A program made the position numbers and the translations under genes. A stretch of 64,000 nucleotides of DNA from Asterella californica. Taxonomy: Eukaryota > Streptophyta > Marchantiopsida > Marchantiales > Aytoniaceae. The stretch spans positions 1 to 64,000 of the forward strand of contig JAYKYS010000014.1 of the NCBI GenBank assembly GCA_036924285.1, written 5' to 3'. The notes beneath the pieces are model-generated. The model did no database searches, was not told where the DNA came from, and saw nothing but the letters and a program-made list of their open reading frames with translations. This document shows positions 21,931 through 62,470 of the stretch, piece by piece; the first letter of the stretch is position 1; each line of letters starts with the position of its first letter.

Positions 21931-22550
21931 ACCGCAGGTATGTTACCAGCCTCCCCTCCTTCTCACTCTCTGAGGATATTTGTCCAGCTTGTGCACACGG
22001 CAAGCATGCATGCACTAAATTCCCACATGTCAGTTCCACTCGATCAACTCGTCCCTTGGCACAGGTCCATTCTGATATTAGTGGTTGTATCCCCCCTTGC
22101 ACCTTTTCTGGCTATGAATATTTCATCACCTTTATTGATGACTACTCGTGCTACACTGTCACTCGTCTTCTCTACTATAAGAGTGATTGTTTTGCTACTT
22201 TTCGGGACTATCTCGCATTTGCAGAACGTGCCACTGGTCAATCTCTTGTCACTTTGCGATCTGACAATGGCGGAGAATATCGTTCAGCTGCTTTTGACGC
22301 TTTCTGTCATGAGCGTGGCATCCAGCGTCAATTCACAATCCCTTACTCTCCTCAACAGAATGGTGTTGTTGAACGTAAGAACCGCAGCTTGCTTGATGCT
22401 GTCCGTTCTATGCTTTTCACTGCCAATCTCATCAAGCCCTTCTGGGGTGAAGCAAAACCGCAGCTTGCTTGATGCTGTCCGTTCTATGCTTTTCACTGCC
22501 AATCTCATCAAGCCCTTCTGGGGTGAAGCAATCACATGCGCCACCTTCCT
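21931..22550 (+). pseudogene. Copia 1 integrase, with 76-bp tandem duplication
   Basis: The frame reads ICPACAHGKHACTKF (zinc-binding end), then the catalytic core with HSDISGC (first Asp), FITFIDDYSCYTVTRLLY, TLRSDNGGEY (second Asp) and YSPQQNGVVERKN (Glu). A 76-bp segment (22381-22456) is repeated directly at 22457-22532. Because 76 is not a multiple of three it shifts the frame. Integrase would insert the cDNA into the genome; this copy cannot. Confidence 0.88.
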
Positions 22551-36650: not shown

Positions 36651-36965
36651 GCTCTCCTGTTTCATTCCATTAAGAAAATAATCGTCCTCATCAGCGAATT
36701 CAACCAGAAATACATCTTTTTACCATGAAAAATTAAGAGCATTGATTTCATGAGCAATCTCTCTAAATAACACACTTGATTACTAAGTGATAAACTTGAA
36801 TATGAACTGAGGACGGTAGTTTTTAGGACGAATGATAGAAAAATTCACCATGAAGTTGAAGGTCAGTCCTCTTCTCTAATTGAACTAGATGAGTACTCCT
36901 CTTTGGAATCAAAGGTCAAGGAATATAATGTTTGACAAGAATGAAAAATCATGAATCGCTTTCAA

Positions 36966-37266
36966 GTTCAAAGCAAACCCTCTTCCCTTGTTCGCTCTCC
37001 AGCTTCAGAACAAATCCTCTTCTCTTGTTCGCTCTCCAGTTTTAGAGCAAACCCTCTTCCTTTGTTTGCTCTCTACCTTCAGATCAAACCCTCATCTCTT
37101 GTTCGCTCTCTGACTCCAAAGTAAACCTTCTTCTTATGTTCTCTCTCCAACTTCAGAGCAAAACTTCTTCCCTTCTTTGCTCTCCACCTTCACAGCAAAC
37201 TTTGTTCTCTCATTCGCTCTCCAGCTTCAGAGCAAACTCTCTTCTCTTGTTTGCTCTCTAGTTTTA
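36966..37266. repeat. 37-bp tandem repeat, about eight copies
   Basis: The unit is roughly AGCAAACCCTCTTCCCTTGT then TCGCTCTCCAGCTTCAG. The conserved CAAA starts occur at 36974, 37011, 37048, 37085, 37122, 37159, 37196 and 37233, an exact 37-base period. Copies differ by a few substitutions and no indels, typical of an ageing minisatellite. The period is not a multiple of three, so it is unlikely to be a coding repeat. Confidence 0.95.
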
Positions 37267-37288
37267 GAGTGTTCCTCTCCCCATGATT

Positions 37289-37405
37289 GACAACAACATC
37301 GCTAAAAGAAACCTCAACCTAGTATTTGACAACTACATCGTTGTAAGAATCATCAACCTAGTATCTGATAACTATATCGTCAAAGAAATATCGACCTATT
37401 ATCGA
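37289..37405. repeat. 39-bp tandem repeat, three copies
   Basis: Units start at 37289 (GACAACAACATCG), 37328 (GACAACTACATCG) and 37367 (GATAACTATATCG), each carrying a CAACCTAGTAT-like end. The 39-base period is a multiple of three and one frame is open across the copies (pattern DNYIVVRIINLVS), but no gene context is visible. It directly follows the 37-bp array. Confidence 0.85.
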
Positions 37406-46216: not shown

Positions 46217-46841
46217 TAGAGGAATTAGAGAGACTAAGCAAGATTAAGGAAGAGAGTAGGGCAATAAGTGAGAAGGAAGAGGCAATTAGAGGAAAGGGCA
46301 ACACCTAGGGTTGCGGATTTAGCGAAGGGTAACGACAGTGACAGGTTGCGGCTCCTCGAAGGAGGTGCAAGGGCATGACGAACCAGCAGGGGGAACATGG
46401 CCGGATTTGGCTCGTCTGGGGTTCTGATATTCGAAGCGATGAAAAGTAGAATCCCGAATCTGGAGGAGGAGTTGGAAAAAAAACGAGGGAGAAGAGTGTC
46501 ATTAGATATGATCGATTCACGATGAGCGAAAAACTTTGATAGAAGTCAAGTTACGGTTGAGAGTTTGTTCCATGTCCTTGTTTATGTGTTGCGTTTGTTT
46601 GTGTTGACGCTTGATTTTCGGAGTGAGTTCACTCCAGTGTGCTGTCGATAGTGAGACTGGAGTTGCGGATCAGTCAGATTATTTTTGTCTCTCTCACGGT
46701 GCGGTTGGAGTGATGACCAACAGACTGTGAGAGGCTGCCTGTGGTGATGGCAGATACAAGTTGCCCTTACCTTGACCGTCCTAGTAAGGAATAGATGAGC
46801 TCAGTAGGAGCGGGGTGACGGAAGCACAAGCAGTCCAGTTC
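46182..46841 (+). pseudogene. N-terminal gag of the methyltransferase-bearing element
   Basis: MAEACRGER (46182), a stop, then IEELERLSKIKEESRAISEK forms a helical, Glu/Lys-rich start typical of plant Gypsy Gag. Reading continues in shifted frames (RVADLAKGNDSDRLRLLEGG, MAGFGSSGVLIFEAMKSRI). The last codons before the insertion, SRSGVTEAQAVQ (46803-46838) then TTC, join directly to FWYGILDRELRRRVRD after the nested element. This confirms that both halves were one gag. Several stops and frame changes make it dead. The extreme N-terminus is inferred from composition. Confidence 0.55.
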
Positions 46842-47612
46842 TGTAACACCTAGGGATTGCATAGTAATAAATATATGGATAGTTATAACTATGTGTGGTG
46901 AGTCTTCTAAATAAATCCCAAAGCTAGACCATACTCTAAATTAGTGACAGATAACTAAGAGTAATCACAGTTAGAGTTGGAGGTATTTGAAAACAAAATA
47001 TTAAAACATTCTAAAGTGTGAGAATTACTATTTTGTTTGGTTGTGCATAAAATGACAAGGATGTGAATAATACACTCTTGTCTTATGCGTGATTGATTTT
47101 TATTGATTGTAGAGACTTAGAGGTCAAACAATCAAGAGGGTTGTTGACCTTTTTGGCTCAATTATGTGTCAGTATTTTGTCTTGTAAAGAGCAATCCGAG
47201 ATTCTATTATACTTCTAGAAGAATCCTAATTATTAGAGTAGAGTCAAAAGAGAAGAAATCTACTCTTGACTTAAGACTTTTATCTTTGACTTGGTCTCGG
47301 TAAATTGCAGTAAATCAGATTTACAAGTAGTTACCATGGTAAATCTGCAGTAGTATAAATAGAGGGGTTGTGGAGTGATCTATCATCCTCCTTTTGCCTT
47401 GTATTTGGAAACCGTTAGACCATATCTATAAAGGGTGTGTTTTTCTCATCTCTATGCTTCCATGAGAGTTCTGGTCCCTAGTGTGGAATTGAGATGAGTA
47501 TGTCGAGAGTTGAATTTAGCAGAGGCCTCCTAATTCTATGATGCGTCTCACCAAAGATCATCAGAGGTTTACCTTGGGTGAGAGACAGGACCGGTAGCAC
47601 GCTTGAGGGTCA
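46842..47612 (+). repeat. 5' LTR of the nested Gypsy element
   Basis: Begins TGTAACACCTAGGG and ends GCTTGAGGGTCA. A TATAAATAG promoter box lies at 47354-47362, preceded by an inverted repeat (CAGATTTAC...GTAAATCTG, about 47317-47348). It matches 53764-54547 with scattered transitions. Confidence 0.95.
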
Positions 47613-48253
47613 CATTTTTGGTTTCGTTGCCGGGACCTCATTAGGAGGCTTGAGAGATATGTTTCGTGTGCAATTTTACATAAGACAGAAAGACGTTATG
47701 AGAGAGCATATCGAGAGAACTCTTGGAGAGGCTAGAGCTACTGCCATGCTAGAGACCTTAGAGCCATTCGTGTATCCGGTTGTCATCTACGACGCATTTG
47801 AGGTCATCTTGTACATTCTGTACACATAGGATGTTAGAATCAGCTGAAGAGAACGTGTCGAGTGTTAGAGTTTAAATCTGAGAGCAGAGTGGTCATATAA
47901 TCCTATATGTTCATGAGGGTAGAGGATCAGATCACTCTTATCAGGTTCTTTGAGTGATAGTCTTTATCGTGGAGACTAAAAAGAGGAGAGGCTAAGAGTC
48001 CGAAGGTGTAGACGATTCGCTTTCTGATCGAGTTTACAGTCACCTTCATTTTCTCTGTATTTCTCGGACGTCCTTGAAACTTCACGACGGACTGGAGAAG
48101 CCTCTGATCTATCTGTTGATCCAAAGATCACTAGTTTTGGAGCTACAGAGCTCAAGATATCGCTGTCAAAAGTTCAGCTGGTAGTCCAATCGATCAAAAT
48201 CTGCATGGGGTCGAATTTAAGCCAAGATCATGGAGGGTCAGAAAGAATAGGTA
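47613..48253 (+). other. Leader region of the nested Gypsy element
   Basis: The stretch contains the putative primer-binding site directly after the LTR and a short frame, 47578-47829 (LGEARATAMLETLEPFVYPV), of unknown meaning. No conserved domain is recognised. Confidence 0.5.
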
Positions 48254-48646
48254 GTGAGGCTTAGGAACTTTCCTCAAAATCTTGATGTCATAGTGGGTGT
48301 GGATGAACGTTCTAGAGAGTTAAAGGTCGAATTTGAAGAGAGAACGGAGAGAAACAAGCAAGACTCTTCCAAGAAGAAGTTGAGGGCAGAACCGTGGTGC
48401 TACTTTTGTAGAGGATTAGGTCATTATGCAGCAAGTTGTCCCGTGAGATTCAAGAGAGAAAACCCTCATGAAGGAAGGAGTTCTATCAATCTAGGTCTCC
48501 GAGTGGGTCCATCGTCTCCTTCGCGTGTTTTTACAGACGAAAACATCTGCTCAAACTGTGGAATTGAAGGTTTGCCAAAGGAGCACGAGTGTGGAGACGT
48601 GATTGCCCTGTTGGCATCTACGTCTAGGAGAGGAGCAAGGAGTTGA
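48254..48646 (+). CDS. Extra zinc-knuckle open frame upstream of gag
   Basis: This frame of about 130 residues contains a CCHC knuckle, CYFCRGLGHYAASC, at residues 50-63 and a second Cys/His cluster, CSNCGIEGLPKEHEC, near residue 98. It sits between the LTR and the main polyprotein of the nested Gypsy element, in the same strand, and is intact. The main Gag has its own knuckle, so this would be an additional nucleic-acid binding protein or a displaced Gag-like duplicate. The start codon is uncertain because the frame is open further upstream. Origin unknown. Confidence 0.55.
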   Translation: MRLRNFPQNLDVIVGVDERSRELKVEFEERTERNKQDSSKKKLRAEPWCYFCRGLGHYAASCPVRFKRENPHEGRSSINLGLRVGPSSPSRVFTDENICSNCGIEGLPKEHECGDVIALLASTSRRGARS

Positions 48647-48909
48647 AACGGAGAAGCTGCCATCTTCAGACGAAAATTCAGCTAACGCATGATGGAGATG
48701 GTAATCCAGATGGTGGAGAAGATGACAATGAGGATGCGACTCATGCATACGTTCGGTGAGGAGATAGCGCAAGCGATTATGGTGGAATCCTTTGCTTTCT
48801 TGCTATCGATGGTTGATTATGCTCGCATGGAGTTAATAATGTTCATCCTATATTAGAAAACGAAGAGAGATATCGTGTTGAGGAGAGGAGAAGACATCAA
48901 GAATTTAAG

Positions 48910-51900
48910 ATGGAGAAGCTTCCGGTTTTCTATGGAAAAGATGGTGAAGATGTAGAAACCTTTGTGCGAGATTTCAAGCGAGCATGCATAGGAAACCATG
49001 AGAGGAAGAAGGAAGAGTGGGCATCATTATTACTTGATTTCCTAGAGGATATCGCATTGACTTGGTATGAGGAATATAGAAGGAACAAGACTGAGATGGA
49101 TACATGGGAAAGCTTGACGGAGGTTCTAATTGAGAACTTTCTGCCGGATGAGAGCTATGAGAAGCTCATGACCGAGGTGACCTTCTTGAAACAAGGAGAT
49201 GCTGAAAAGGTGAGGGTTTACGCAGAAAGAACCGAGAAGTTGGAAGCTCGTTTCAAGACTATACTGAAGAAGAGTGGTGATAATGTGGAGGCTACAATGG
49301 TGGGAATTGTGGCCATGCTTACCAAGAACTTTGTGGCAAGTTTGAGGCTTCAAATCAGAACTCAGGTGAAGTACGAGAAGCCCACCACTAAGACGAAGGC
49401 GATTGAAATTGCAGTTCGAATGGAAGAGAGTTTGGAAGATGATGACGTTCTTCTAGGAGAAGCAAAGACGACAAGTGTTGCAGGGATTACACTCGGTGGT
49501 AGAGCTGCTCAGAGAATCCCGACGCCTATTGTGGTTAACACCTCTGCTGTGGTTAACACACCTGCTGTGGTTGCTGTCAACCCTCCGGCGTCTAATATTC
49601 AAGATGAACTAAGACAGATAACAGAAACGTTGGCGGATCTGAAGATCAATGTAGTGCAGTTGAAAGAGCGGAGGAACCAAAGAGGAGGAGGAGGCCAACG
49701 AGGTTATGGAGGAAATTTCAATCGAGGGCCTCAAAATGAATTCGGTGGTATCTCGTGCTACGGATGTGGTGGTCCTCATTTTCAAAGGAATTGTCCACAC
49801 TCCATCCAAAATGGAGGACGGAACAATGAGGGTACAAGAGGAAATATGGACGGAGGAGTCCCGTCACAAAACAAAGACAAAGGAGTTACCACAATCGATG
49901 CGATGAAGGTGCCAAACGTTTATGAGAGAGGAGAATGCTCTTACTCTCAAGTGGAACTCTTAGCTCATGAGAGGAAGAGGACGAGGTTTTCAGAGGAACC
50001 TATGATCATTGGGGATTCTCAAAGTAGGAGCACTCGTTCCAGCACTATGTCTTCTTCTCAGAAGGAGCCTAGGAAGAAGCTGGGAATGGAGGATTTCACC
50101 ATTTCAGCTGCTCAACCTAGATATGACGTAGTGGAGGATGTTGGCACGCAAAAAGCCAACATAACGATGGATCAATTGATCGCACTCAACCCAAGCTTGA
50201 GGAGAGAGCTTCGAGGAGGATTGAGCTCGCGAAGGACCAAGAAGAAGAAATCTAAGGGCAAGATCAACGTCTCAAGTGTGGGAGTTGGTGTAGTGGATGC
50301 TCAGGCCTCTGAGGTATGCACTAAAGCATCCAAGATCGAGGTTCGTTTGAATGGACACTTTGTACCTGATGTATTGGTGGACGGAGGTTCTGCTGTGAAT
50401 GCGATATCTGAACGTTTGATGAAGCGGTTGGGGATGAAACCCACGAGATCGGCGAGCATCATTGTTGGTATGGCAAACAAGCAAAGGGTGAGACCTCTCG
50501 GAGTCCTAGAGAAAGTAGTGGTGTCGGTTATGAGGGTACAGACCTTGATGTCTTTTCAAATTCTGAAAGATTCTAGCTATGACTTGCTCCTTGGAAGACC
50601 TTGGTGGAGAGCCGTTCGTACAATTGATAGATGGCACAAAGGTTACTTGAGGATAGGACCTAGCGACCATCGAGTGAAGGTGCCTCTCTCAAGTGGTGGC
50701 TGTGTAACTTCTGATTCTGATAGACCAACCAGCGACTATTGGGAGTCAGAAATCGAAGACAGTGGAAGTGTCTCCGGAGTAGATACAGGTGGTTCTTCTG
50801 ATGAGAAGACGTCAGAAGATGAAGAGTTTGATATGGATTGTATCACACCTCATATTGGAGCTATTGATTTGCTCCCTCGTCCATCTGTTGAGAAGGACCC
50901 GGACAAAACAAAATTAAGTGGAGAGGAACTAGAGCGAAGACTAGCAACCATCAAGTTTGGTCCCAAGGTGACTTCGGAAGAGAAGAGAAGGTTCTTGGAG
51001 ATATTCAGGAAGTACATCCACGTGTTTGCTTTCAGCTATAAAGATCTGAAGGAGGTGACATTGGAGACGCACCGGATCGACGTGGAGGAGGACGCGAGAC
51101 CTGTTCGACAAAAGCAACGGAGGATCAGCCCGCCAACAGCAGTGATCGTCAAAGAAGAGATTGATAAACTGAAGGAAGCTGGGTTCATTTACGAAGTGGA
51201 GAATTCAGAATGGGTATCGCCCATCGTGATCGTGAAAAAGAAGAACGGTAAGCTTCGCGTATGTGTGGATTACAAGAAGTTGAATGCAGTCACGAAGAAG
51301 GATTACTACCCGTTGCCATTCATCGATGAGATCTTGGAAGAAGTCGCAGGTCATGAATGGTACAGTTTTGGAGACGGTTATAGTGGATATAACCAGATCC
51401 ATATAGTCCCTGAGCATCAACACTTAACGACCTTCACTACTCCGTGGGGTACATTTGCGTCTCGCGTGATGCCGTTCGGGTTATGTAATGCTCCAGCTAC
51501 TTTTCAACGGTTCATGAACAAAGTGTTCGAACCGTTTCTTGGGAAGTTTGTTAGAGACTTCATTGATGACTTTTGTGTGTATGGGCGGAAGGAGGATCAC
51601 TTTGATCATCTGATCAAAGTATTAGAGCGATTGGAGCAAGCTAATGCATCTCTGAATCCAGAAAAGTGCATTTTTGGATGCGAGGAGGGTTTGCTGTTGG
51701 GACACATCGTCTCCAAAAATGGAATAGGAGTGGATCCAGATAAGGTGAAGAAGATAGTCGAACTACCGTTCCCTACTAGCTTGACCAAGTTGAGACAATT
51801 TCTTGGGATGGTGGGATATTATCGTAGATTCATTTCATCCTTTTCCAATAAAGCTCAATCGTTGACCAACTACATGAAGAAGGGTGTAGTCTTCGAGCTG

Positions 51901-52845
51901 ATACTTCAGGATCAGAAGGCTAAGGAGGCGTTTGAAGAGTTGAAGAAGGCATTGGTGATAGCCCCAATCCTCGCCAAACCTGACTGGAGTAAGTCATTCA
52001 TCGTTTATACTGATGCATCCAATGTTGCGATTGGATGTACCTTGAGTCAATTAGATGAGAATGGACACGACCATCCAATAGCTTATGCTAGTAGACAGAT
52101 GGTGCAAGTTGAGAAGAACTATTCTGTGACAGAGAGAGAAGGGTTGGCCGTAATCTTTGCTTTGAAGAAGTTTCGGCACTATTTGTTAGGAGGAAAATTT
52201 TCTATAGTGACTGATCACAAAGCTTTGAAGTACATCTTCAATAAGCCCAACGCGGAGGGAAGGATAGCTCGATGGAAGATCCTCATGGCAGAATATGATT
52301 ACGTCATTGAGGATAGACCGGGGAGGAAGCATGCCAACGCAGATTTGTTGTCTAGAGCTTACGATGAATTGGGAGAAGAACCATTAGATGATACTTTTCC
52401 GGATGAAGACTTGATGACCATCACGTTGAGCAGCGAGGTGCCGGAAGAGTACAAGGAGGTGTGGAATTTCCTTTCTGATGGATCATTTCCTGAAGGTATG
52501 CAAGCGAGAGAGAAGAATGCTCTAATGAGAAGGTGTAAGCCATACACCATTGTTGAAGGAGTTCTTTTTCATCAAGGTGCTGATGGACTGCTACGACGAG
52601 CTGTGGGCAAGGAGGAAGCTGCGAGGTTGATGCTGGAGTTCCACGATGGACCTGTATGTGGTGGTCACTTTGCTGGTAAGGTGACGGTTTTCAAAATCTT
52701 AGACGCTGGATATCATTGGAAGGGTATTTTCAAGGACTGTTTGGAATATTGCAGAACTTGCGATGTGTGCCAAGCCTTTGCCCAGAAGTCTACTAGCACT
52801 CCTCCCTTGAGATCAGTTCCTGTGCTAGGTCCGTTTGAAAAGTGA
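48910..52845 (+). CDS. Nested Gypsy polyprotein: Gag, protease, RT, RNase H, start of integrase
   Basis: A single 1311-codon frame starting MEKLPVFYGKDGEDVETFVR. Gag covers roughly residues 1-300, with a CCHC-like knuckle CYGCGGPHFQRNC near residue 285. The protease is visible as VLVDGGSAVNAISERLM near 50380 (DGG in place of DSG/DTG). Reverse transcriptase runs from about 51130 (YPLPFIDEIL, MPFGLCNAPATFQRFM) with the catalytic pair in FIDDFCVYG (about 51559). RNase H follows (FIVYTDASNVAIGCTLSQ, VTDHKALKYIF), then the integrase zinc domain (HFAGKV...CRTCDVC). The frame ends at a TGA where relatives have Trp (PFEK-W-GID), so the stop is a point mutation rather than a natural end. Confidence 0.93.
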   Translation: MEKLPVFYGKDGEDVETFVRDFKRACIGNHERKKEEWASLLLDFLEDIALTWYEEYRRNKTEMDTWESLTEVLIENFLPDESYEKLMTEVTFLKQGDAEKVRVYAERTEKLEARFKTILKKSGDNVEATMVGIVAMLTKNFVASLRLQIRTQVKYEKPTTKTKAIEIAVRMEESLEDDDVLLGEAKTTSVAGITLGGRAAQRIPTPIVVNTSAVVNTPAVVAVNPPASNIQDELRQITETLADLKINVVQLKERRNQRGGGGQRGYGGNFNRGPQNEFGGISCYGCGGPHFQRNCPHSIQNGGRNNEGTRGNMDGGVPSQNKDKGVTTIDAMKVPNVYERGECSYSQVELLAHERKRTRFSEEPMIIGDSQSRSTRSSTMSSSQKEPRKKLGMEDFTISAAQPRYDVVEDVGTQKANITMDQLIALNPSLRRELRGGLSSRRTKKKKSKGKINVSSVGVGVVDAQASEVCTKASKIEVRLNGHFVPDVLVDGGSAVNAISERLMKRLGMKPTRSASIIVGMANKQRVRPLGVLEKVVVSVMRVQTLMSFQILKDSSYDLLLGRPWWRAVRTIDRWHKGYLRIGPSDHRVKVPLSSGGCVTSDSDRPTSDYWESEIEDSGSVSGVDTGGSSDEKTSEDEEFDMDCITPHIGAIDLLPRPSVEKDPDKTKLSGEELERRLATIKFGPKVTSEEKRRFLEIFRKYIHVFAFSYKDLKEVTLETHRIDVEEDARPVRQKQRRISPPTAVIVKEEIDKLKEAGFIYEVENSEWVSPIVIVKKKNGKLRVCVDYKKLNAVTKKDYYPLPFIDEILEEVAGHEWYSFGDGYSGYNQIHIVPEHQHLTTFTTPWGTFASRVMPFGLCNAPATFQRFMNKVFEPFLGKFVRDFIDDFCVYGRKEDHFDHLIKVLERLEQANASLNPEKCIFGCEEGLLLGHIVSKNGIGVDPDKVKKIVELPFPTSLTKLRQFLGMVGYYRRFISSFSNKAQSLTNYMKKGVVFELILQDQKAKEAFEELKKALVIAPILAKPDWSKSFIVYTDASNVAIGCTLSQLDENGHDHPIAYASRQMVQVEKNYSVTEREGLAVIFALKKFRHYLLGGKFSIVTDHKALKYIFNKPNAEGRIARWKILMAEYDYVIEDRPGRKHANADLLSRAYDELGEEPLDDTFPDEDLMTITLSSEVPEEYKEVWNFLSDGSFPEGMQAREKNALMRRCKPYTIVEGVLFHQGADGLLRRAVGKEEAARLMLEFHDGPVCGGHFAGKVTVFKILDAGYHWKGIFKDCLEYCRTCDVCQAFAQKSTSTPPLRSVPVLGPFEK

Positions 52846-53751
52846 GGAATTGATCATGTCGGTCCTTTAAACAAAACACCTCGTGGCAACAGATATATCG
52901 TGATTGCAACCGATTATTTGACTATGTGGGTGGAAGCCAGACCACTTAAAACCACAAGTGAGGAAGAGGTTGGCCGTTTCTTATGAGAACGGATCATTAC
53001 TAGGTTTGGATGCCCTCTTGAGTTGGTTTCTGATAGGGGTGGTGAATTTGTGGGAAGCATCACAACCGCTATGTTGGAACATTTCTCCATCAAGCCGCGA
53101 GTGACAACTTCTTACAAACCGAACGCTAACGAGTTAGCTGAGAAGACCAATCATACCTTGTGTGCGATGCTGGCCAAGGATGCTGATATGGAGGACGCGA
53201 AGCACAACTGGGATAAGAGGTTACATGCAATCTTGTGGGAGTATAGGACTACTACGAAGACTTCGACGGGATACACTCCTTTTCATCTTGTTTACGGTGT
53301 GGAGTCGAAGTTGCCCATACAGTTTGATTTACCTACCTTTCAAACTGTCCATAAGAGGTTAAAGAGGTCGATTGGAGCAGCAGCCGAAAAGTCTAGAAGA
53401 GAGCAACTATTGGAGTTGGAGGAAGCACGAGTGGTGGCAATGGTTCAGATGAAGAAGGCGCAAGAACGTCAGAAGAAATATTACGACAAGCGTCTCGATA
53501 AGAGAGAAGTGAAGCCGTTCAAGGAAGGAGATATGGTAATGCTTTTTGATGCCATTAGGTATAAGAGAGCTAGGAAGAAGTTCCTTCCACGCTACTTTGG
53601 TCCTTTCATCATCGAGAAGATGTGGAGTAATTTTACATACGACTTGAAAGAGCTAGGAGGACGGAGGTTTGACCGGGTGAATCACGACAAGCTCAAGCTT
53701 TTTCATCAAAGGAAAGTCATCGTTCACTCCGAGGACGAAGTGAAAACTTAG
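52846..53751 (+). pseudogene. Nested Gypsy integrase core and tail
   Basis: The frame continues directly after the TGA at 52843-52845: GIDHVGPLNKTPRGN (first catalytic Asp), VIATDYLTMWVEARPL, then a second stop at 52984 (Arg to TGA type). It goes on with ITRFGCPLELVSDRGGEF (second Asp), KPNANELAEKTNHTL (Glu) and the C-terminal GPFIIEKMWSNFTYDLKELG beta-barrel end. Only the two stops break it. The protein ends at 53751, just before the polypurine tract. Confidence 0.9.
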
Positions 53752-53763
53752 TCCGGGGGTAAA
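53752..53763 (+). other. Polypurine tract of the nested Gypsy element
   Basis: CCGGGGGTAAA lies directly before the 3' LTR. Confidence 0.75.
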
Positions 53764-54547
53764 TGTAACACCTAGGGGTTGCATAGTAATAAATATATGG
53801 ATAGTTATAACTATGTGTGGTGAGTCTTCTAAATAAGTCCCAAGGCTAGACCATACTCTAAGTTAGTGACAGATAACTAGGAGTAGTCACAGTTAGAGTT
53901 GGAGGTATTTGAGGACAGAATATTAGAACATTCTAAAGTGTAAGAACTACTATTTTGTTTGGTTGTGCATAAAATGACAAGGATGTGAATAATACACTCT
54001 TGTCTTATGCGTGACTGATTTTTATTGGTTGTAGAGACTTAGGGGTCAAACAATCAAGAAGGTTGTTGACCTTTTTGGCTCAATTATGTGTTAGTATTTT
54101 GTCTTGTAAGGAGCAATCCGAGATTCCTTTCAAAGATTCCTTTATACTTCTAGAAGAATCTTAATTATTAGAGTAGAGTCAAAAGAGGAGAAATCTACTC
54201 TTGACTTAGGACTTTTACCTTTGACTTGGTCTCGATAAATTGCAGTAAATCAGATTTACAAGTAGTTACCATGGTAAATCTGCAGTAGTATAAATAGAGG
54301 GGTTGTGGAGTGATCTATCATCCTCCCTTTGCCTTGTATTTGGAAACCGTTAGGCCATATCTATAAAGGGTGTGTTTTTCTCATCTCTATGCCTCCATGA
54401 GAGTTCTGGTCCCTAGTGTGGAAGTGAGATGAGTATGTCGAGAGTTGGATTTAGCAGAGGCCTCCTAGTTCTATGATGCGCCTCACCAAAGACCATCAGA
54501 GGTTTACCTTGGGTGAGAGACAGGACCGGTAGCACGCTTGAGGGTCA
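53764..54547 (+). repeat. 3' LTR of the nested Gypsy element
   Basis: Begins TGTAACACCTAGGGG and ends GCTTGAGGGTCA. It is longer than the 5' LTR mainly because of a short tandem duplication near 54121-54143 (AAAGATTCCTTT type). The AGTTC duplication follows. Confidence 0.95.
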
Positions 54548-54548
54548 T

Positions 54549-55470
54549 AGTTCTGGTATGGGATACTAGACCGGGAGCTGCGTAGGAGAGTTAGAGATGC
54601 TACTCTCCTTAGAGATATCGTTCCGACGTTGACGGTTGTCTTTAGTCTGGCTGAGCGGATTGAGCTCAACATGGTGGAGGAGAGGGTGGTGGTTGCTGGG
54701 TTCAGCAAGGAGACACCACATTGAGCGACCACCTCTTCTCGAGGATCACAAGCTACGCAACAGCGTGGTGGTGGTGGTGGTAAGGATCGTGCGGAGCAGT
54801 CACGATCTCAAGGAGGTGTTGGAGGATCTGGTGGGCAGAAGCCCATGCCGTCCTTCTCTAGTCAGCAGCAAGTGGGTCCTTGCTAGACGTGTGATGGTCC
54901 TCATCAGCAGAGGGACTGTCCACAGAGGAGAGGTTATGAGACGTCAGGGACATCAGGGACGTCTCAAGCAGCACCTAGGCAATGTGAGCATTGCGGACGA
55001 CCTGTCACAGTAGTGACCGTTGTTTTGATCTCCATCCCGAGTTGCGGCAAGGGAAGGCTGATCGTGGACGAGGCAGAGGAGCTCAGGGAGGCCGTGGTGG
55101 TCGAGCTGGAGATAGAGGTCCAGCACCTGGGAGAGGACCGATCGGTCCACTGCCTGCTACGACGTCAGAAGCAGGTATGGCTGCTCGGATTGAGCAGTTG
55201 GAGCAGAGGATAGCTAGTATGGCTATGGCTCAGCGGAGATCAAGTGGAACAGAGGCTTCCACGTCTTATGGAGGAGAAGAAAGTGACTTCTACTTCATGG
55301 CTGGTGTGGCGCAGATTGAGGCATCTGCGGCAGTGACTAGAGGTGCAGTACGTGCCTCTGAGCCACGAGGTGCATCAGTGGAGTTGGATCCACAACGCGG
55401 GGAGGCTGATAGACAGGCCAGGCTTCCTCAGTCGTTCACGTTTGAGGACCACATCTATGGTTCCTAAACG
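54549..55470 (+). pseudogene. C-terminal gag of the methyltransferase-bearing element
   Basis: Gag resumes right after the nested insertion: FWYGILDRELRRRVRD, TLTVVFSLAERIELNMVEE, a Gly/Arg-rich linker, and two zinc knuckles. The first reads CxTCDGPHQQRDC with a TAG at the second position (about 54884). The second reads CEHCGRP (54983) and continues one frame over as HSSDRCFDLHPELRQ, so one base is missing near 54996. An Arg/Gly-rich segment (RGRGRGAQGGRGGR) follows. The segment is clearly nucleocapsid-like but inactivated. Confidence 0.85.
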
Positions 55471-56640
55471 GCCTACCGATGGTATAGTAGAGTTGGAGGC
55501 ATCGACATCCAGGAGTGAGTGTGATGTGAGTCCACCTTCGACGTCTGTGGATGCGACGCTCGAACCCGTTGTTGAGGGCGGCTACAGCGGTTTTGCGAGC
55601 CCCACTATTCTCAGCCACGGATATGAAGGCATTGGGAGTCAACTTGGCTCCAGTGTTCCAGTTGGCGGTCACGCTCAGTGAGAACGAGGATATAGTTACC
55701 TCTAGTGCTGAAGTAGTTCAGCGAGAGGCGGTAGACGTGTCCATGGAGTCGAGGATCAGGACAGCTACCAGTGGTACTTGGCAAGCGGCGACTGCTAGGT
55801 TAGATGAGTTACCAGCTAGGCCGGCGATTGACCGTGCTGGTTTGGCACCAGGTGTGCTGTTGTTGGACAACAGAAGTGGTATCTTCTGTTTGGTGGCACC
55901 TTCAGGGAAAGTGTATCGACCCCAGAAGATCTTGTTAGACTCTGGAGCCCAACCGTTGATGTTGGGTAAGGCGGCGTGTATTGGTTTGGGTCTGAAGAAG
56001 TCCGAGATAGAGAGATGTCCATTCCAGTTGCAGACATCTCCAGGGGGATCAGGAGGTAGGGCTCTACACATGACACGTGAAATGTTAACGATGAGAGTTC
56101 GGCCAGATCATCCCACGGATGGCTCTATGGTGAGGGCCAAGGCCATAGTTACAACCGCAGAGTCTTATGATGTATTGGTGGGAGGTGCTGTGTTGTACCC
56201 TATGGGGTTCGTGATCGACTATTGGACGGAGACAGCATCTTACAGACCAGGTTGGCAGTCCGGTGAGGGACGAGTGAGCCGCTTACCAATGCGGTTCAGT
56301 GCTAGAGTTGGGACGACGGAGCCTACACCAAGGACGATGACATCCGTTGCAGGGTTCAGTTCGGTCATCACTTGGCCGAGCGAGTTGTTGGAGAGCAATG
56401 CCCATGCGGAGGATACTCCGGTCTTTGAGGAGGTGGAGGACATGCCTAGCATGTCTACGTTAGTACCATCTGCCTTGGATGTTTCACTCTGGAGTTCGAG
56501 TGAAGAGTTGCAACAGTATGCTGATCAGTTGGTGCAGCAGGCTTGGAGTAAAGTCTTTGTACCACCAGTAGAGGAACAAAGGGTTGTTCCTGCTACTGGC
56601 CCTGTGACCTTATCATCGTTGGATACGATTCCCATTGTGT
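55471..56640 (+). pseudogene. Aspartic protease region of the methyltransferase-bearing element
   Basis: After two frame changes between 55460 and 55620, the frame from 55551 reads PSGKVYRPQKILLDSGAQPL, with an intact DSG triad at 55938-55946. It continues SYDVLVGGAVLYPMGFVIDY, the second conserved protease block. Retroviral-type proteases of this kind cut Gag-Pol. A long linker (55.9-56.64 kb) leads straight into the methyltransferase domain in the same frame. Confidence 0.85.
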
Positions 56641-57841
56641 GGCAGTATCCAGAGGAGGGTGTATGTGTGCTGGAGCTGTTTGGAGAGATCAGCACAAGTT
56701 TGGCTGCGGTATTGCAAGCAGGTATACAAGTACAACGATACTTGTATGTGAAGAGAGATGAGATTGCAAGACGCATCTCATTGCGACATGTGGCACGTTT
56801 GGTGCAGAGATATCCTGAGTTGTTGCTCATATCAGCTGTTAGAGGATACCAGCAAGCATTACCGTCGGATATTTCGCTGTTGGGGGCACAGGATCTTACC
56901 TTGACATAGACGGATGGCCATGTCAAGGTCATACGCGTGCTGGGAGAGGTCAGGGTTTACATGACCCGCGATCTAGGATGTTCTGGGAGATGTTACGGAT
57001 CTTACGACATCTCCAGATGCATCAGGTGGATTCTCCAGCGTACATCTTGGAGAACGTTCCTTTGTTGGGTGATGCTCGTACACAGATGATGGCGAGTGTG
57101 CACCAAGTGCGGTCTTGGGTTGGACCAGCAGTGTTGTTGGATGCAGCGAGAGTAGGATCTCGTGCACATCGTCCACGGTTGTGGTGGACGAACTTGTTAC
57201 CGAGAGAGGTGCTTAAGCGCGCACACGATGGAGTGAGACGACCAGCGCATCTCACGGTTGATAGCATCTTGGATGCAGGACGACGATCTCAAGTGGTGAG
57301 AGTCGTCGATAGGTCACCCATGGCAGTGGTGAACCTAGTGGGACGGCCCATGGTAGCATTACCCACTTTGGTAAGCTTTCCAGCGTCACATGCTTATAGA
57401 GATGGAGAACCTGGGCTTGTGTGGGATGCTCAATTACGGCAGTTGGTGGAGCCCAATGTCGATGAGAAAGAGCGAGCGATGAGTTTCGCTACGAGTACGA
57501 CGGCAGTAGCTTCGGTGTCAGAGGCTTCACGTCGTCAAGTATTGGGTCAAGCAACGGACTTGAATTGCTTGACATGGATTGTTAACCTTGGATTGGCTGA
57601 GCAGCGTCGGATGCGATCGACGGGAGTTACTGCTCGAGCACTCTTGAGCTCTTTGTCTACCGAGTCGGTGGAGACAAAGGCTGGGGGCGAGGCACATGGA
57701 GTTCGTCATCCTTGGACATCATGGGATGTCGTAGGAGAGAGTGTGGAGCTTGCAGCTAGAACTGCAGAAGCTTTTCGCACAGTAGCGGTGGAGATTGTTG
57801 GTGGTGAGCAGAAAGAAACTGCTCCAGAGGCTGCAAGATAG
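56641..57841 (+). pseudogene. Cytosine-C5 DNA methyltransferase domain within Gypsy pol
   Basis: The domain would transfer a methyl group from S-adenosylmethionine to cytosine C5 in DNA. Motif I: VCVLELFGEISTSL (56661; usual FxGxGT loop altered), then a motif II-like VQRYLYVKRDEIARRIS. After a one-base frame change near 56906, motif IV GWPCQGHTRAGRG has the catalytic Cys at 56921-56923, followed by DPRSRMFWEMLRIL. Motif VI: AYILENVPLLGD (ENV at 57050). Motif VIII: GSRAHRPRLWWTNLLP (57164). A short target-recognition region follows, then a motif IX/X-like end (SEASRRQVLGQATDLNCLTW, about 57515-57575). About 310 residues, the size of a catalytic domain alone. Linked in frame to protease before and RT after (one TAG at 57839), so it is part of the polyprotein and not a neighbouring gene. 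Confidence 0.9.
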
Positions 57842-59640
57842 CAGTCAACGACTTCGTCTTCTATCTCTAGCATGGTGACAGAGGATACTTGGGAGCCGGA
57901 GATTGGACCCAAGCTTATAGGAGAGGAGAGACGAAGAGTCCAAAGATTCCTGAAGAGCTACAGGAATTGTTTTGCCTTCAGTATGAAGGATTTGGGTACC
58001 TTGAAAGGACCTGGTATACGGATCGACTTGGCTAATGACACGCCAATCTTTCGACGTTCTTACAGGTACAGTGACATGGAGAGAGCCTTGATCCAGAGTC
58101 GGACTCAAGACTTGTTGGAGGCTAGGTTGGTGGAGATGTCGCATGGAGAGTATGCATCTGCCACAGTTATGCCAGCCAAGAAGGATATGTATGGCAACTA
58201 CACAGATAGACGGATGTGTGGGGACTATCGTCCTATTAATCGGCAGACGAAGTCCGATAAGTATGTCATGCCGACACCTGAGGAGATCTTTGATGCAGTG
58301 GGACATGTGAAGGTCTTCAGTACTTTGGATCTTCGAGCAGAGTATCATCAGTTGCCAGTGAGAGAAGAAGATAAGTCCAAGACAGCATTCTGGGGAATTG
58401 ACTCTCACGGCAAGGATTGTTTGTATCAGTGGCGGTTCTGACCATTTGGGTTGAAGAACGCCCCTGCTGAGTTCCAAAGGGTGATGGACAAAATCCTAGC
58501 AGGATTGGATTTTGTCAGATGTTATATTGACGACATCTTAGTCTATAGTGCTACAGTGGAAGAGCACGAGAGACACTTACGGGATGTGTTTGAGCGGTTG
58601 AGAGCTCATGGGTTGAAGTTACACCCTGGGAAGTGTAAGTTCTTCCAAGAGTTGGTAGAGTATCTGGGCCACACCATCTATCCAGGTGGATTGAGTGTTC
58701 AACAGACGAAGGTTGAGGCTATTGCACGTATCCCGCGTCCCACAGATGTGAGTCGAGTTCGGGCATTTGTTGGTTTGGCGAACTTTTATCGTCTGTACGT
58801 GAAGGGATTTAGTGCAATTGCGAAGCCGTTGACCAAGCTGATGAAGGTGGACCAGGAGTGGCAGTGGGGAGATGAGCAGGAGTGAGCTTTTGTAGAGCTC
58901 AAGGATAGGTTGACATCTGCTCCCATCTTGAGGAGACCCGTTAGGGGGCGTCCTTTCTAACTGCACACTGATTGGAGTATGTTGGGACTTGGAGCAGTGC
59001 TGACTCAGCATGATGATGAGAAAAAGGAGTTCGTGGTGGCGTATGCCAGTCGCTCCAACAATTCAGCGGAGGCGAGGTATAGTTCGTATGAGAGAGAGTG
59101 TTTGGCGGCAGTGTGGGCTGTTGCACACTTTCGATGTTATCTGTTTGGGAACCTCTTTACTCTCATCACTGATCACAAGCCGCTCAAGTGGTTGATGGAG
59201 TCCGACAAGCTTACAGGGAAGCTTGCACGATGGGCTCTGATCTTACAAGAGTATGACTTCCAGGTAGTGCATAGACCTGGAGTTGCAAACCTAGATGCCG
59301 ATGGGTTGAGTCGCAACCCGTGCACGAGTCAGCAGGATCAGACTGGGACTCGATGGCATGACGAGGTTGATGAGGAGATAGTGCCAGGGTGGCATGCATC
59401 TGCCTTTCTTTGTGTGTTGGCCATGAACTCTAGTATGGAGGGTCAAGTCGTATCTTTCTCTGGTCAGAGAGTAGATGATGAGTCTCCAGATCCAGGAGTT
59501 GGAGATGGTGTTCCAGATCAGCGAGATATCCATGATGATGTGACCGTGATGGAGTATCTACGTACTGGGGTGGTAGTAGACACAGTAAGTGCCAAGGAGC
59601 GAGATCGTGTCCTTCAACGAGCGAAGAGATTTTGACGAGA
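57842..59640 (+). pseudogene. Reverse transcriptase and RNase H of the methyltransferase-bearing element
   Basis: Same frame as the methyltransferase. RT: MCGDYRPINRQTKSDKYVMP, VFSTLDLRAEYHQLPV, TGA at 58439, PFGLKNAPAEFQRVMDKI, CYIDDILVYS (catalytic pair about 58530), LGHTIYPGGLSV. TGA at 58883 (Trp position) and TAA at 58958 (Gln position) precede RNase H: LHTDWSMLGLGAVLTQ, FVVAYASRSNNSAEARYSSY, LITDHKPLKWL, FQVVHRPGVANLDADGLSR. A linker then runs to a TGA at 59633. Catalytic residues are intact; only stops damage it. It groups with Ty3/Gypsy by motif order and content. Confidence 0.93.
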
Positions 59641-60820
59641 AGGACGACATGTACTTCGAGTGTGGGGTGATGGGAGGGTACGGATAGTGCCACATCCATC
59701 CCAGAGGGCACAGTTAGTACGACATGCCCATGAGGAGTTGGGACATTTTGGAGTGAAGCGTACACATAGCTTACTCCAAGGACAATATTGGTGGCGTGGT
59801 ATGCACATCGATGTGCAACAGTTTGTCGCACGATGTGTGGTTTGTGATCGAGTACGAGCATCGTTTAATGCTCCTACTTCACAGTTACACCCCTTACCAA
59901 TTATGGGGTTGGGTTACCGTTGGAGTTTGGATTTTGCGGGACCCTTACCGTTGACCGTACGTCACCACCGGTATGTGTTGGTGATGGTGGAGCACTTCTC
60001 CAAGTGGATTGAGTTGGTGGCATTACTAGACAAGGCGAGTGAAGGGACAGCGTATGCGTTCTTAGATCGAGTGCTGAGTCGTTTTGGAGCACCAGCTGAA
60101 GTGCTGACAGACCAAGGTACAGAGTTCCTTGGTGAGTTTCAGGTCTTGTGTGATCAGGCGCTGATTGATCATCGGACTACATCTCGAGATCATCCTGAGG
60201 CGGATGGTTTGGCGGAGAGGGTAGTTCAGACGGTGAAGAGAGGATTGCGCAAGTATGGTTTGCAAAAGGGCCACTTGGGAGACTGGGATGTGCAGTTACC
60301 ATGGTTGGCTATGGGCTACCGTTTCAGCCGACAAGCGTTTTTGGCTTCCTTCTCATCGTATTTTCTATTGTATGGTCGAGATCCAGATCTACCTTCGGCC
60401 ATTCGTCGTGATTCTGCTGAGGTGCTGAACCTTGATGACTCGGATATGTAGGTGAGAGCATGTTCTCAACGAGCAGAGACATTTCGGAGAGTTATGCCTA
60501 TGGCTTTTGAGAACCTAGCGATTGCTCAGCATAGAGATACGTTGCGATATGCGATTATCCGAGGAGGAGGTTATCGGCCGTCGATTCGCAGGTTTCATCC
60601 TGGCGATTATATCTATCTACAGCAGACTGCACCGACGACGTTGGATGTGACCGCAGGGCGCACTATTTTACGAGTGCGTGAGGTGTTACCTTCTGGAGTA
60701 CTCATGTTAGAGGGCCGTGATGGTGTTGTTTGGAAGGACCATGTGCGTAATTGCACGCCATCTCATCTTCTCAACATTGATGGTACCGTTGACCCAAGCT
60801 TAGCAGTTGTACGCGCGGGC
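59641..60820 (+). pseudogene. Integrase of the methyltransferase-bearing element
   Basis: Zinc domain HAHEELGHFGVKRTHSLL...CVVCDR, catalytic core with WSLDFAGPLPLTV (Asp), VLTDQGTEFLGEF (Asp) and EADGLAERVVQTVKRGL (Glu), then a TAG at 60449 (Gln position). The C-terminal domain includes FRRVMPMAFENLAIAQHRDT, FHPGDYIYLQQTAP and LMLEGRDGVVWKDHVRNC. Integrase would insert the cDNA. The tail runs without a break in frame into the PHD finger, where many Gypsy integrases instead carry a chromodomain. Confidence 0.92.
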
Positions 60821-60968
60821 TTGAGGTGTATGTTGTGTGGGTCTGCTGATGGAGCAGCCCGTATGTTGGTGTGTGATGGTTGTTCCGAGAGGTTGGCACA
60901 TGTCATGTTTGACTCCACCTCTCAGTGTAGTTCCTACTGGACGGTGAGTTTGTCCTCGATGTATATAG
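60821..60968 (+). pseudogene. C-terminal PHD finger on the integrase
   Basis: LRCMLCGSADGAARMLVCDGC (60821-60883) gives the first four zinc ligands (CX2C, then CDGC) in the pol frame. After a one-base frame change near 60890, the other half reads WHMSCLTPPLSVVPTGR, a TGA at the expected Trp (60945), then VCPRCI and a stop at 60966-60968. Together this is the full C4HC3 pattern with the conserved WH, LxPPL and WxCPxC features of PHD fingers. PHD fingers bind histone H3 tails in specific methylation states. Placed on the integrase C-terminus it would be expected to steer insertion or read the local chromatin. Function here is inferred. Confidence 0.85.
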
Positions 60969-61020
60969 CGGAGATAGTCGATTAGATCTTTGCGTGGTAT
61001 GGATTGCAGACAGACGACTA

Positions 61021-61032: not shown

Positions 61033-61650
61033 TGTAGCACCCGGCCTCCTGATCCTTGCACCCATGAAGGTGTGTATCACGTAGTTGGGATATGGAGCTA
61101 TCTGGAGTTAGAGGGACCTAACTGCCAGTTAGGGGGACGATTGTGGTACACTTGTGTATGTGTATGACATCGTCCATGTGTTATGTGTATGTGTAGTGTA
61201 TCTCTGACAGCGATGTATGTTGTATAGCGATGTGTATGCGCACGACAGCTGTCACGTCAGTTTGGGCACCTTGGCTAGGTTGACCGAGTGCGAAGTGGCG
61301 CATCCCAGTAAGGCCGTTAGTGCCGTTAGGGCGAGTTGGTGAGAGAGCCCACTAGGGGTAAACTTCGCAGGTAAGGCTTGGAGGCCTTAGTTCTTTGAGT
61401 TGAGCCTTCAAGCTTCAGGCTATGGTGGATAGTCTAGTTGAGTGTAACCCGGATTCTCTTCGTGCTTAGAGTGGGTTTGGCTTGACCGTTTGTGAGTAAT
61501 CCTTGTTGTGGTGTTGGAGATGGTAATTTCTCTATTCAGATTATTGTGGTACACTTGTGTATGTGTATGACATCGTCCATGTGTTATGTGTATGTGTAGT
61601 GTATCTCTGACAGCGATGTATGTTGTATAGCGATGTGTATGCGCACGACA
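61033..61650 (+). repeat. 3' LTR of the methyltransferase-bearing element
   Basis: TGTAGCACCCGG at 61033 to GCGCACGACA at 61650 gives TG...CA ends and 618 bp. It follows a polypurine tract and precedes LINE coding sequence. There is no second LTR in the window to confirm the ends. A perfect 109-bp direct repeat occupies 61140-61248 and 61543-61651. Confidence 0.65.
61140..61248 (+). repeat. 109-bp perfect direct repeat (second copy 61543-61651)
   Basis: The segment starting ATTGTGGTACACTTGTGTAT and ending GCGCACGACAG occurs twice, 403 bases apart, with no mismatch. It is rich in GTATGTGTA-type repeats. The second copy ends at the proposed LTR boundary. Confidence 0.95.
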
Positions 61651-62470
61651 GGTAGCTCGGACCCTTAAGCTGAAATATCTAACTAAGATACTGAGTGGTG
61701 GCAACCAAGAGTGGATCCGAATATCAAGATGGGGTATACGGGAGACAAGGAGGAAAGACAAAAGATGTAGGTACACTGTGGAGTGGACTCCCGAGGAGTG
61801 TATACTTATGATGCATGGACTTCGAGTTCGTGCTCTCCCGACTCTGGATAGTATGCTTAAGTGCTGGAGGCTGGTGGCGGAGAGGCTCAGGTTCGAGGGA
61901 AATATTGTACAGTTATCGGTGTCTCTATCCACCCTCCTTGCGATCGACCTCTGGCGTTACTTTGACTCGACGACCGATCAAGACAGGAAGGAGGTTCTTC
62001 GTAGCATTAAGAGACACAATCTGACCACACTTAACGCTCTTAAGATAAAGGACCTGAAAGATTCTATGGGGGGCATCTCTCTATCTCGCGCTGAGGTCAG
62101 ACTGAGTCCTGCGGAAGGTCGGGGGGAGGAGCTACTGAGGAAGCTAACGAGATGGGCAGGAGAGATTCTGACGATATCCGGGGGGTTACAAGAAAGCGAT
62201 AACTGGGTGTGAAGCTGGACAACAAGAAGACGAGAGGCTGGAGACAGGAGCTTCGAGCGTGGAAAGGCCTGCTTAACCAAAAGACTATCAACTACTAGGT
62301 CCTAAATGCAAGATGGGAACAAATGACAACCACAAGGTGTGAGAAGGAAGATGGGCGAGGATTTGACAGAAGGGAGGGACAAATAGAAACAATCTATGGC
62401 TTTGGAGGCTGCTTAATAGGGGTTTCTTCACCAACAGCCGAGCCCAACAGAGTGTGAAAAAATATGCTGT
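61651..62470 (+). pseudogene. LINE (non-LTR retrotransposon) ORF2 3' part
   Basis: Reading starts right after the LTR: RTLKLKYLTKILSGGNQEWI, RISRWGIRETRRKDKRCRYT, then 61778-62212 (WTPEECILMMHGLR, TLDSMLKCWRLVAERLRF, LRSIKRHNLTTLNALKIKDL). After a stop and frame changes, NLWLWRLLNRGFFTNSRAQQ appears near 62390-62450. That is the conserved block just before the terminal zinc motif of L1-like ORF2 proteins. Reverse transcriptase and endonuclease are not in the window. The Gypsy element probably inserted into this LINE; the matching left LINE part is not present at the other end. Confidence 0.75.

Follow-up and report, generated by a model that had tools for sequence, protein, structure and literature searches.

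Within the 64,000-nucleotide (nt) stretch of the genome of the liverwort Asterella californica analysed here (contig JAYKYS010000014.1, positions 1 to 64,000 of the forward strand; the window) lies one damaged copy of a Gypsy-type retrotransposon that occurs in many copies, was amplified recently and has a DNMT3-like cytosine-C5 DNA methyltransferase (MTase) domain at the end of its first open reading frame (ORF1). The presence of the domain and its place in the element are almost certain, and from its sequence the domain is predicted to methylate DNA. The explanation that best covers all the observations, and which we judge slightly likelier to be right than wrong, is that the element likely methylates its own complementary DNA (cDNA) and likely integrates from cDNA molecules joined end to end.

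The MTase motifs I, IV, VI and VIII follow each other in canonical order in the window copy, at the places named in the original prediction, which was made from the letters alone: motif I (VLELFGEISTSL) from 56667, the PCQ site of motif IV at 56918-56926, ENV of motif VI at 57050-57058 and AHRPRLWW of motif VIII, with the protease DSG site at 55938-55946 and reverse transcriptase (RT) after 57842. The motifs are intact in other copies. The segment 56843-57838 matches the hidden Markov model PF00145 (DNA_methylase; E = 2.2e-7, 31.1 bits against a cut-off of 22), which bears out its identification as a C5-methyltransferase; its NCBIfam dcm score is 27.8 bits, under the cut-off of 100.65. DNMT3A is its top PDB match (E = 4.9e-4), and a structure model of an intact copy has the DNMT3 fold. 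Profile comparison places the domain nearer to DNMT3 than to DRM or bacterial enzymes, fold comparison likewise puts DNMT3 ahead of the bacterial ones, and DRM and bacterial enzymes were ruled out as its nearest kin on these grounds; DNMT1 and CMT chains are absent among the profile and fold matches listed, which leaves them possible. A search of viral contigs gave 15 loci with only distant enzymes (24-43% identity over parts). The ratio of nonsynonymous to synonymous substitution rates (dN/dS) of the domain is 0.18.

Other copies of the element are abundant. Comparison of the MTase piece with the same 516.7-Mb genome gave 121 scored matches including the window's own, a lower bound taken from 4477 first-look candidates, and the others are 90-96% identical to the window piece; an unrelated insertion private to the window copy is thereby ruled out, and the claim that an MTase, now typed as DNMT3-like, is built into a Gypsy-type element is upheld. 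Open frames of at least 1368 amino acids without a stop hold 30 of the 121 matches. Twenty copies were fetched, 19 from these 30 and one with a stop, and in all of them the MTase domain is the C-terminal part of ORF1. In intact copies ORF1 encodes a Gag-like part, a protease and the MTase, and ORF2 encodes RT, RNase H, a DDE integrase and a PHD finger in the same frame, with one UAG between the two. ORF2 is open for 1038-1041 amino acids, with the PHD finger at its end, in 8 of the 14 copies read to the end, and has stops in the other six. The order RT-RNase H-integrase (H2C2, DDE) with the protease ahead is that of Ty3/Gypsy elements, and the element's protease (P0001, 725-828) resembles that of P0032 (36 bits). 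The PHD finger behind the integrase (L011 and other copies; about 60825-60982 in the window) is common to many relatives and may be a chromatin-reading targeting module.

The original prediction placed the MTase, RT, RNase H and integrase in a single frame, which does not hold. In the window, motif I lies in the frame of an ORF at 55530-56909, whereas motifs IV to X lie in a different frame (56843-57841) that is closed by a TAG at 57839-57841, ahead of RT. The shift between motifs I and IV is damage of the window copy, because an ORF1 of 1368-1383 amino acids runs open across that place in 19 of 20 other copies. Motif I of the window copy is also degraded, reading FGEISTS against FGGISTG in 19 of 20 other copies. 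Damage does not account for the TAG, which is present in all 20 fetched copies.

In each of these 20 copies the stop reads TAG CAG TCA, and the frame runs on past it. A relative with 50% identity in the domain (L043) has TAG CAA TCA at the same place, with ORF2 in frame after it. UAG CAR YYA has been reported as the context essential for readthrough in tobacco mosaic virus, and readthrough candidates have been described among rice gypsy-type elements, RIRE2 being one (PMC2754532); the stop of the Asterella element differs from these in following a methyltransferase. From its context, the UAG is very probably a leaky stop. A minority of ribosomes would read through it, making RT-integrase a minor product, and because the stop is placed after the MTase, the MTase would fall on the Gag side, be made at Gag levels and be packed into the particle. 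An ordinary stop, with ORF2 expressed through splicing or internal initiation, is very doubtful: some Marchantia gene models do fuse MTase and RT in a single protein (P0008, P0014), but UAG-CAR-UCA is kept between elements with 50% identical domains although the Gln codon is CAG in one and CAA in the other, and ORF2 goes on in the frame of ORF1.

Relatives are present in bryophytes, as had been expected. The nearest named ones are those of Marchantia polymorpha, which accounts for 14 of 57 protein matches (76% identity over 90% of the query region). Its 14 proteins (P0002, P0003 and 12 others) are annotated as hypothetical (for example Mp_4g09160) and could pass for host methyltransferases. 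Further named relatives belong to Sphagnum fallax, Closterium, Monoraphidium, Haematococcus, Cymbomonas, Scenedesmus and a Chromochloris-coded entry; most of the others are environmental sequences without a species name. Among 239 relative proteins collected, 235 match the MTase domain, and a domain order was assigned to 191, with 48 left out. Architecture I, with the MTase before RT or ending the protease ORF as in the window, is found in 50 of the 191, and architecture II, with the MTase behind RNase H and mostly between RNase H and integrase, in 141. Where both flanks are available from named hosts, Sphagnum and Closterium have architecture I, and Monoraphidium, Haematococcus, Cymbomonas and the Chromochloris entry have architecture II. 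P0198, P0172 and other architecture II proteins are chlorophyte-type relatives with the MTase between RNase H and integrase.

A domain tree of 127 rows was built by a quick method with SH-aLRT support and no bootstrap; 168 of the 191 domains were near-full, 118 remained after thinning, and to these were added L043, four rows from the host or from human and four from bacteria or viral contigs. All 119 domains borne by elements, with named liverwort and chlorophyte ones among them, fall into one clade (SH-aLRT 99) that leaves out host DNMT3, human DNMT3A, DRM and the bacterial and viral-contig rows; host DNMT3, human DNMT3A, DRM and one bacterial row make up an unresolved fork beside it. Architecture II is one clade (SH-aLRT 99) inside a grade of architecture I, and P0130, a long-branched protein of architecture I, falls beside it. 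A tree of RT and RNase H repeats the split (architecture II, 99) with 87 of the 118 rows and only two ordinary Gypsy-type rows as outgroup. Because the element domains form one clade and architecture II one clade within the grade, the trees speak for a single capture followed by one move within the element, in which a domain that had preceded RT came to lie between RNase H and integrase. Inheritance from the streptophyte ancestor and separate capture had been proposed as alternatives; the answer leans towards one old capture, perhaps as old as the split between chlorophytes and streptophytes, with transfer between hosts as the alternative.

L043 is a 9.3-kb contig (1-9285) of a metagenome-assembled genome labelled 'Synechococcales'; it reads as a plant or algal retrotransposon, and its ends overlap by 127 nt, as those of a circular assembly would. 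Both it and P0055, from a 'Minisyncoccia' metagenome-assembled genome, are probably eukaryotic contamination of bacterial genomes.

Element families with Dnmt3 domains have been described before. KnitGypsy-Dnmt3 of the charophyte Klebsormidium nitens shares with the Asterella element the Gypsy domains, a non-rearranged Dnmt3 within the polyprotein and purifying selection on that domain (Ka/Ks < 0.2; De Mendoza et al. 2018, PMC5890265). It is described from that one charophyte, whereas the element studied here comes from a land plant and has relatives in several green lineages; a leaky stop, a target duplication, a variable joint and a circle model are not part of the account in the available portions of PMC5890265. 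No named K. nitens protein occurs among the relatives, most of which lack a species name. The MTase element has a DDE integrase, unlike SymbioDIRS-Dnmt3 of dinoflagellates, which is a DIRS element. Such elements use a tyrosine recombinase. SymbioDIRS-Dnmt3 likewise has Dnmt3 in its polyprotein, and CG methylation by its domain was shown in yeast (PMC5890265).

Both ends of the element were read in 14 of the 20 fetched copies (L018, L020, L022, L023, L026 and L027 were not extended to their 3' ends), and all 14 start with TGTCACG, end with ACGA(C/T)A and are flanked by exact 4-bp target duplications. Integrase-type ends and a short target duplication are of the Ty3/Gypsy kind. An identical complete long terminal repeat (LTR) at both ends was not found: the terminal repeats are split, with A (294 nt) alone at the 5' end and B (109 nt), A and B at the 3' end (A1...B1-A2-B2), and for that reason the element is filed as a variant with Gypsy-type proteins and not as a standard LTR element. 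A further 20 3' stretches yielded 15 informative ones (L062, L067, L069, L078 and L079 are without A or B), and B-A-B was found at 23 of 29 3' ends. The B/A joint reads CACGACA-GC-TGTCACG in 24 of 25 cases. The A/B joint is variable, being flush in 17 of 23, with one extra nucleotide in 5 and with 12 nt matching the polypurine flank of B1 in one (L015). Within each of 10 copies (L025, with an indel, was left out), A2 departs from A1 at 0-4 of 293 sites, and amplification was recent because they differ so little.

The site right after A1 is complementary to 12 nt inside A (15 in L017), a match reached by none of 1000 shuffles; this putative primer site abuts the end of A, as the polypurine tract abuts the start of B. 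L043 has a 13-nt complementary pair and the same order of polypurine tract, B, (ACGACA GC TGTCACG) and A. Base 13 after A1, at the end of the predicted self-priming site, is variable (G in 9, C in 6 and A in 3 of 18 among copies L009-L028), as expected if a capped primer end were copied unevenly. Primer sites complementary to a tRNA start with TGG; the sequence after A1 does not and is self-complementary instead, and a tRNA primer was rejected as the leading idea. Neither the window nor the eight loci examined yielded a tRNA gene.

New copies probably integrate by an unusual path, from cDNA that has been joined end to end and is reopened inside the repeat. The mRNA would start inside A, at the predicted 5' end AGTTCTTTGAGT, and would prime itself as in Tf1, whose mRNA 5' end is complementary to the primer site; here the complementarity is 12-15 nt, and the primer is predicted from sequence. 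Reverse transcription would give linear DNA with B-A as its LTR (B-A...B-A), the right end (A) would be joined to the left end (B) in a 2-LTR circle or concatemer, and integrase would open the internal B/A site (ACA-GC-TGT) and insert A1...B1-A2-B2 with a 4-bp target duplication. Joined cDNA is suggested because the A2/B2 joint is variable and has once retained the polypurine tract. Retroviral 2-LTR circles also have end-joined LTRs, sometimes keeping bases of the primer tract, and are regarded as dead ends, whereas integrated copies of the MTase element look like opened joined forms.

The split repeats might instead stem from a route like that of DIRS or PAT elements, in which the internal B1-A2 serves as template for the circle, in place of end joining of a completed linear cDNA, and integrase merely inserts it. 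PAT-type DIRS elements have the same A1-B1-A2-B2 split direct repeats (PMC4157794), and the repeats of the K. nitens element were called DIRS-like (Fig. 4 legend of PMC5890265). PAT-type elements use a tyrosine recombinase, however (PMC4157794), and the Asterella element has a DDE integrase, TGT...ACA ends and, in every one of the 14 copies read, exact 4-bp duplications; no tyrosine recombinase was found in a Pfam scan limited to ORF1 and 993 amino acids of ORF2, in which the integrase core (rve) is present. A templated joint should be constant, yet A/B joints vary, and the primer site and polypurine tract adjoin the end of A and the start of B. This route is rather improbable.

Inside the particle or the nucleus, the MTase may methylate the double-stranded cDNA of its own element de novo, so that the cDNA would be marked before or at integration. 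We hold this to be the likeliest function and give it an even chance; self-methylation of cDNA has been proposed for DIRS elements by De Mendoza et al. (PMC5890265).

Several observations weigh against this explanation of methylation and integration. The K. nitens domain gave no methylation in yeast, a result that its authors call inconclusive (PMC5890265). It is also consistent with the domain being a catalytically idle part of Gag that binds DNA or RNA or has a structural role, as is the replacement of the Pro of PC by Glu (GWECQ for GWPCQ) at the catalytic loop in many relatives; such a role is hard to credit, since across 123 domains there is almost no variation in the catalytic Cys, in Glu of motif VI or in Arg of motif VIII, a constancy unneeded for binding alone. 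Six of the 29 3' ends depart from the simple form: B stands alone in L019, L068 and L080, L009 has an inversion, L012 has a doubled 5' A (the second missing its first 20 nt) and L076 is also odd, and several of these fit joined or rearranged cDNA. Concatemers would leave ends identical to those from circles, and the circular look of L043 may be an assembly collapse. The fetched copies were picked for a good match and an open frame (19 of 20), which over-represents intactness. Position and CCHC knuckles are the basis of the Gag label; in Pfam the knuckle reaches 10.3 bits, below its cut-off, and no Pfam Gag family scores in the scan of P0001.

Singleton C-to-T decay in the 20 copies, found at 107 of 635 CHG, 62 of 594 CG and 178 of 2076 CHH sites, belongs with these points. 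Because per-site decay is highest in CHG, with no pointer to a CG enzyme, it is better explained by host silencing, and it carries no support for the element's own enzyme. Such a signature is expected of methylated copies, and the MTase might be kept to restrain the element, its self-methylation of inserted copies cutting transcription and limiting harm to the host, and not to aid replication; De Mendoza et al. list this possibility (PMC5890265). We regard it as unlikely in view of the recent amplification (121 scored matches, nearly identical A1 and A2), the decay without CG bias and the host's own DNMT3-type and DRM-type exons (typed by reading of motif order), which could do the silencing.

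With methylation and integration of joined cDNA taken together, a wider proposal can be put forward tentatively, at somewhat less than an even chance. A green-lineage clade of Gypsy-type elements, of an age that spans chlorophytes, charophytes, mosses and liverworts, might follow a third replication route, intermediate between DIRS and LTR elements: cDNA that has primed itself and has B-A as its LTR would become a 2-LTR circle, be opened by a DDE integrase at an end pair pre-formed in the LTR, and be methylated by a co-packed, Gag-level DNMT3, perhaps so that the host leaves the circle intact until insertion.

The 5' part of the window copy is split by a nested ordinary Gypsy element, upstream of which only one piece of the MTase element was detected (Table 1).

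Table 1. Features of the MTase element and its nested insertion in the window
Feature	Position	Strand	Evidence or remark
Detached upstream piece of the 5' untranslated region of the MTase element	46575..46816	+	blastn against L011 2502-2742, 91%; 242 nt
Nested ordinary Gypsy (Gag, protease, RT, RNase H, integrase), foreign to the MTase element	46842..54557	+	LTRs 46842-47622 and 53764-54557, 94% alike
Surviving 3' part of ORF1: Gag-like CCHC knuckles (frames broken), then aspartic protease, DSG 55938-55946	54549..56663	+	Alignment to intact copies; sequence
DNMT3-like C5-methyltransferase domain, end approximate	56664..57625	+	PF00145, motifs, fold of intact copy
ORF1 C-terminal tail	57626..57838	+	Model confidence low for most of it; dN/dS 1.37, giving no sign of constraint
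TAG CAG TCA, in-frame stop with UAG-CAR-YYA leaky-stop context	57839..57847	+	20/20 copies; published consensus (PMC2754532)
Reverse transcriptase	57842..58885	+	RVT_1 9.2e-22; stop at 58439-58441 in window copy
RNase H	58961..59635	+	RT_RNaseH 3.8e-35
Integrase, H2C2 zinc domain and DDE core	59636..60448	+	Integrase_H2C2 9.4e-18, rve 3.3e-13; triad visible in L011
Integrase C-terminal region, PHD finger truncated here	60452..60985	+	PHD whole in 8/14 other copies
Polypurine-tract-like plus-strand primer site abutting B1	61129..61139	+	Same site before B1 in 14/14 copies
Repeat B1, 109 nt	61140..61248	+	
B1/A2 junction: integrase-type ends ACGACA and TGTCACG, 2 nt apart	61241..61256	+	Exact in 24/25 B-A joints of other copies
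Repeat A2, 294 nt	61249..61542	+	Counterpart A1 is the 5' end of full copies
AGTTCTTTGAGT, predicted mRNA 5' end and self-primer	61389..61400	+	Complementary to 12 nt after A1 in full copies
Repeat B2, the 3' end of the element	61543..61651	+	

Elsewhere in the window, positions 1-869 are a near-pure G run (869 nt, 95% match) at the beginning of the contig, which may be an artefact of sequencing or assembly, a 76-nt unit is perfectly duplicated head to tail at 22380-22531, and two adjoining tandem arrays with units of 37 and 39 nt occupy 36956-37403.

Among the open-licence papers listed in literature searches, judged by their titles and the starts of their abstracts, there was neither one on such an element in bryophytes nor one on Gypsy integration from end-joined cDNA, which is weak evidence of absence. 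Transposons are the usual targets of DNA methylation, and here an element that has recently multiplied in a land plant brings its own DNMT3-type domain, which is under selection. Its relatives across green plants indicate that such elements are no charophyte oddity, and their occurrence in land plants is at odds with a passage in a 2019 paper (PMC6338049) by which land plants such as tracheophytes lack transposons with a methylase. The relatives found in Marchantia, which is grown in laboratories, are suited to testing the purpose of the MTase. Integration from joined cDNA, if true, would depart from the general view of 2-LTR circles as dead ends.
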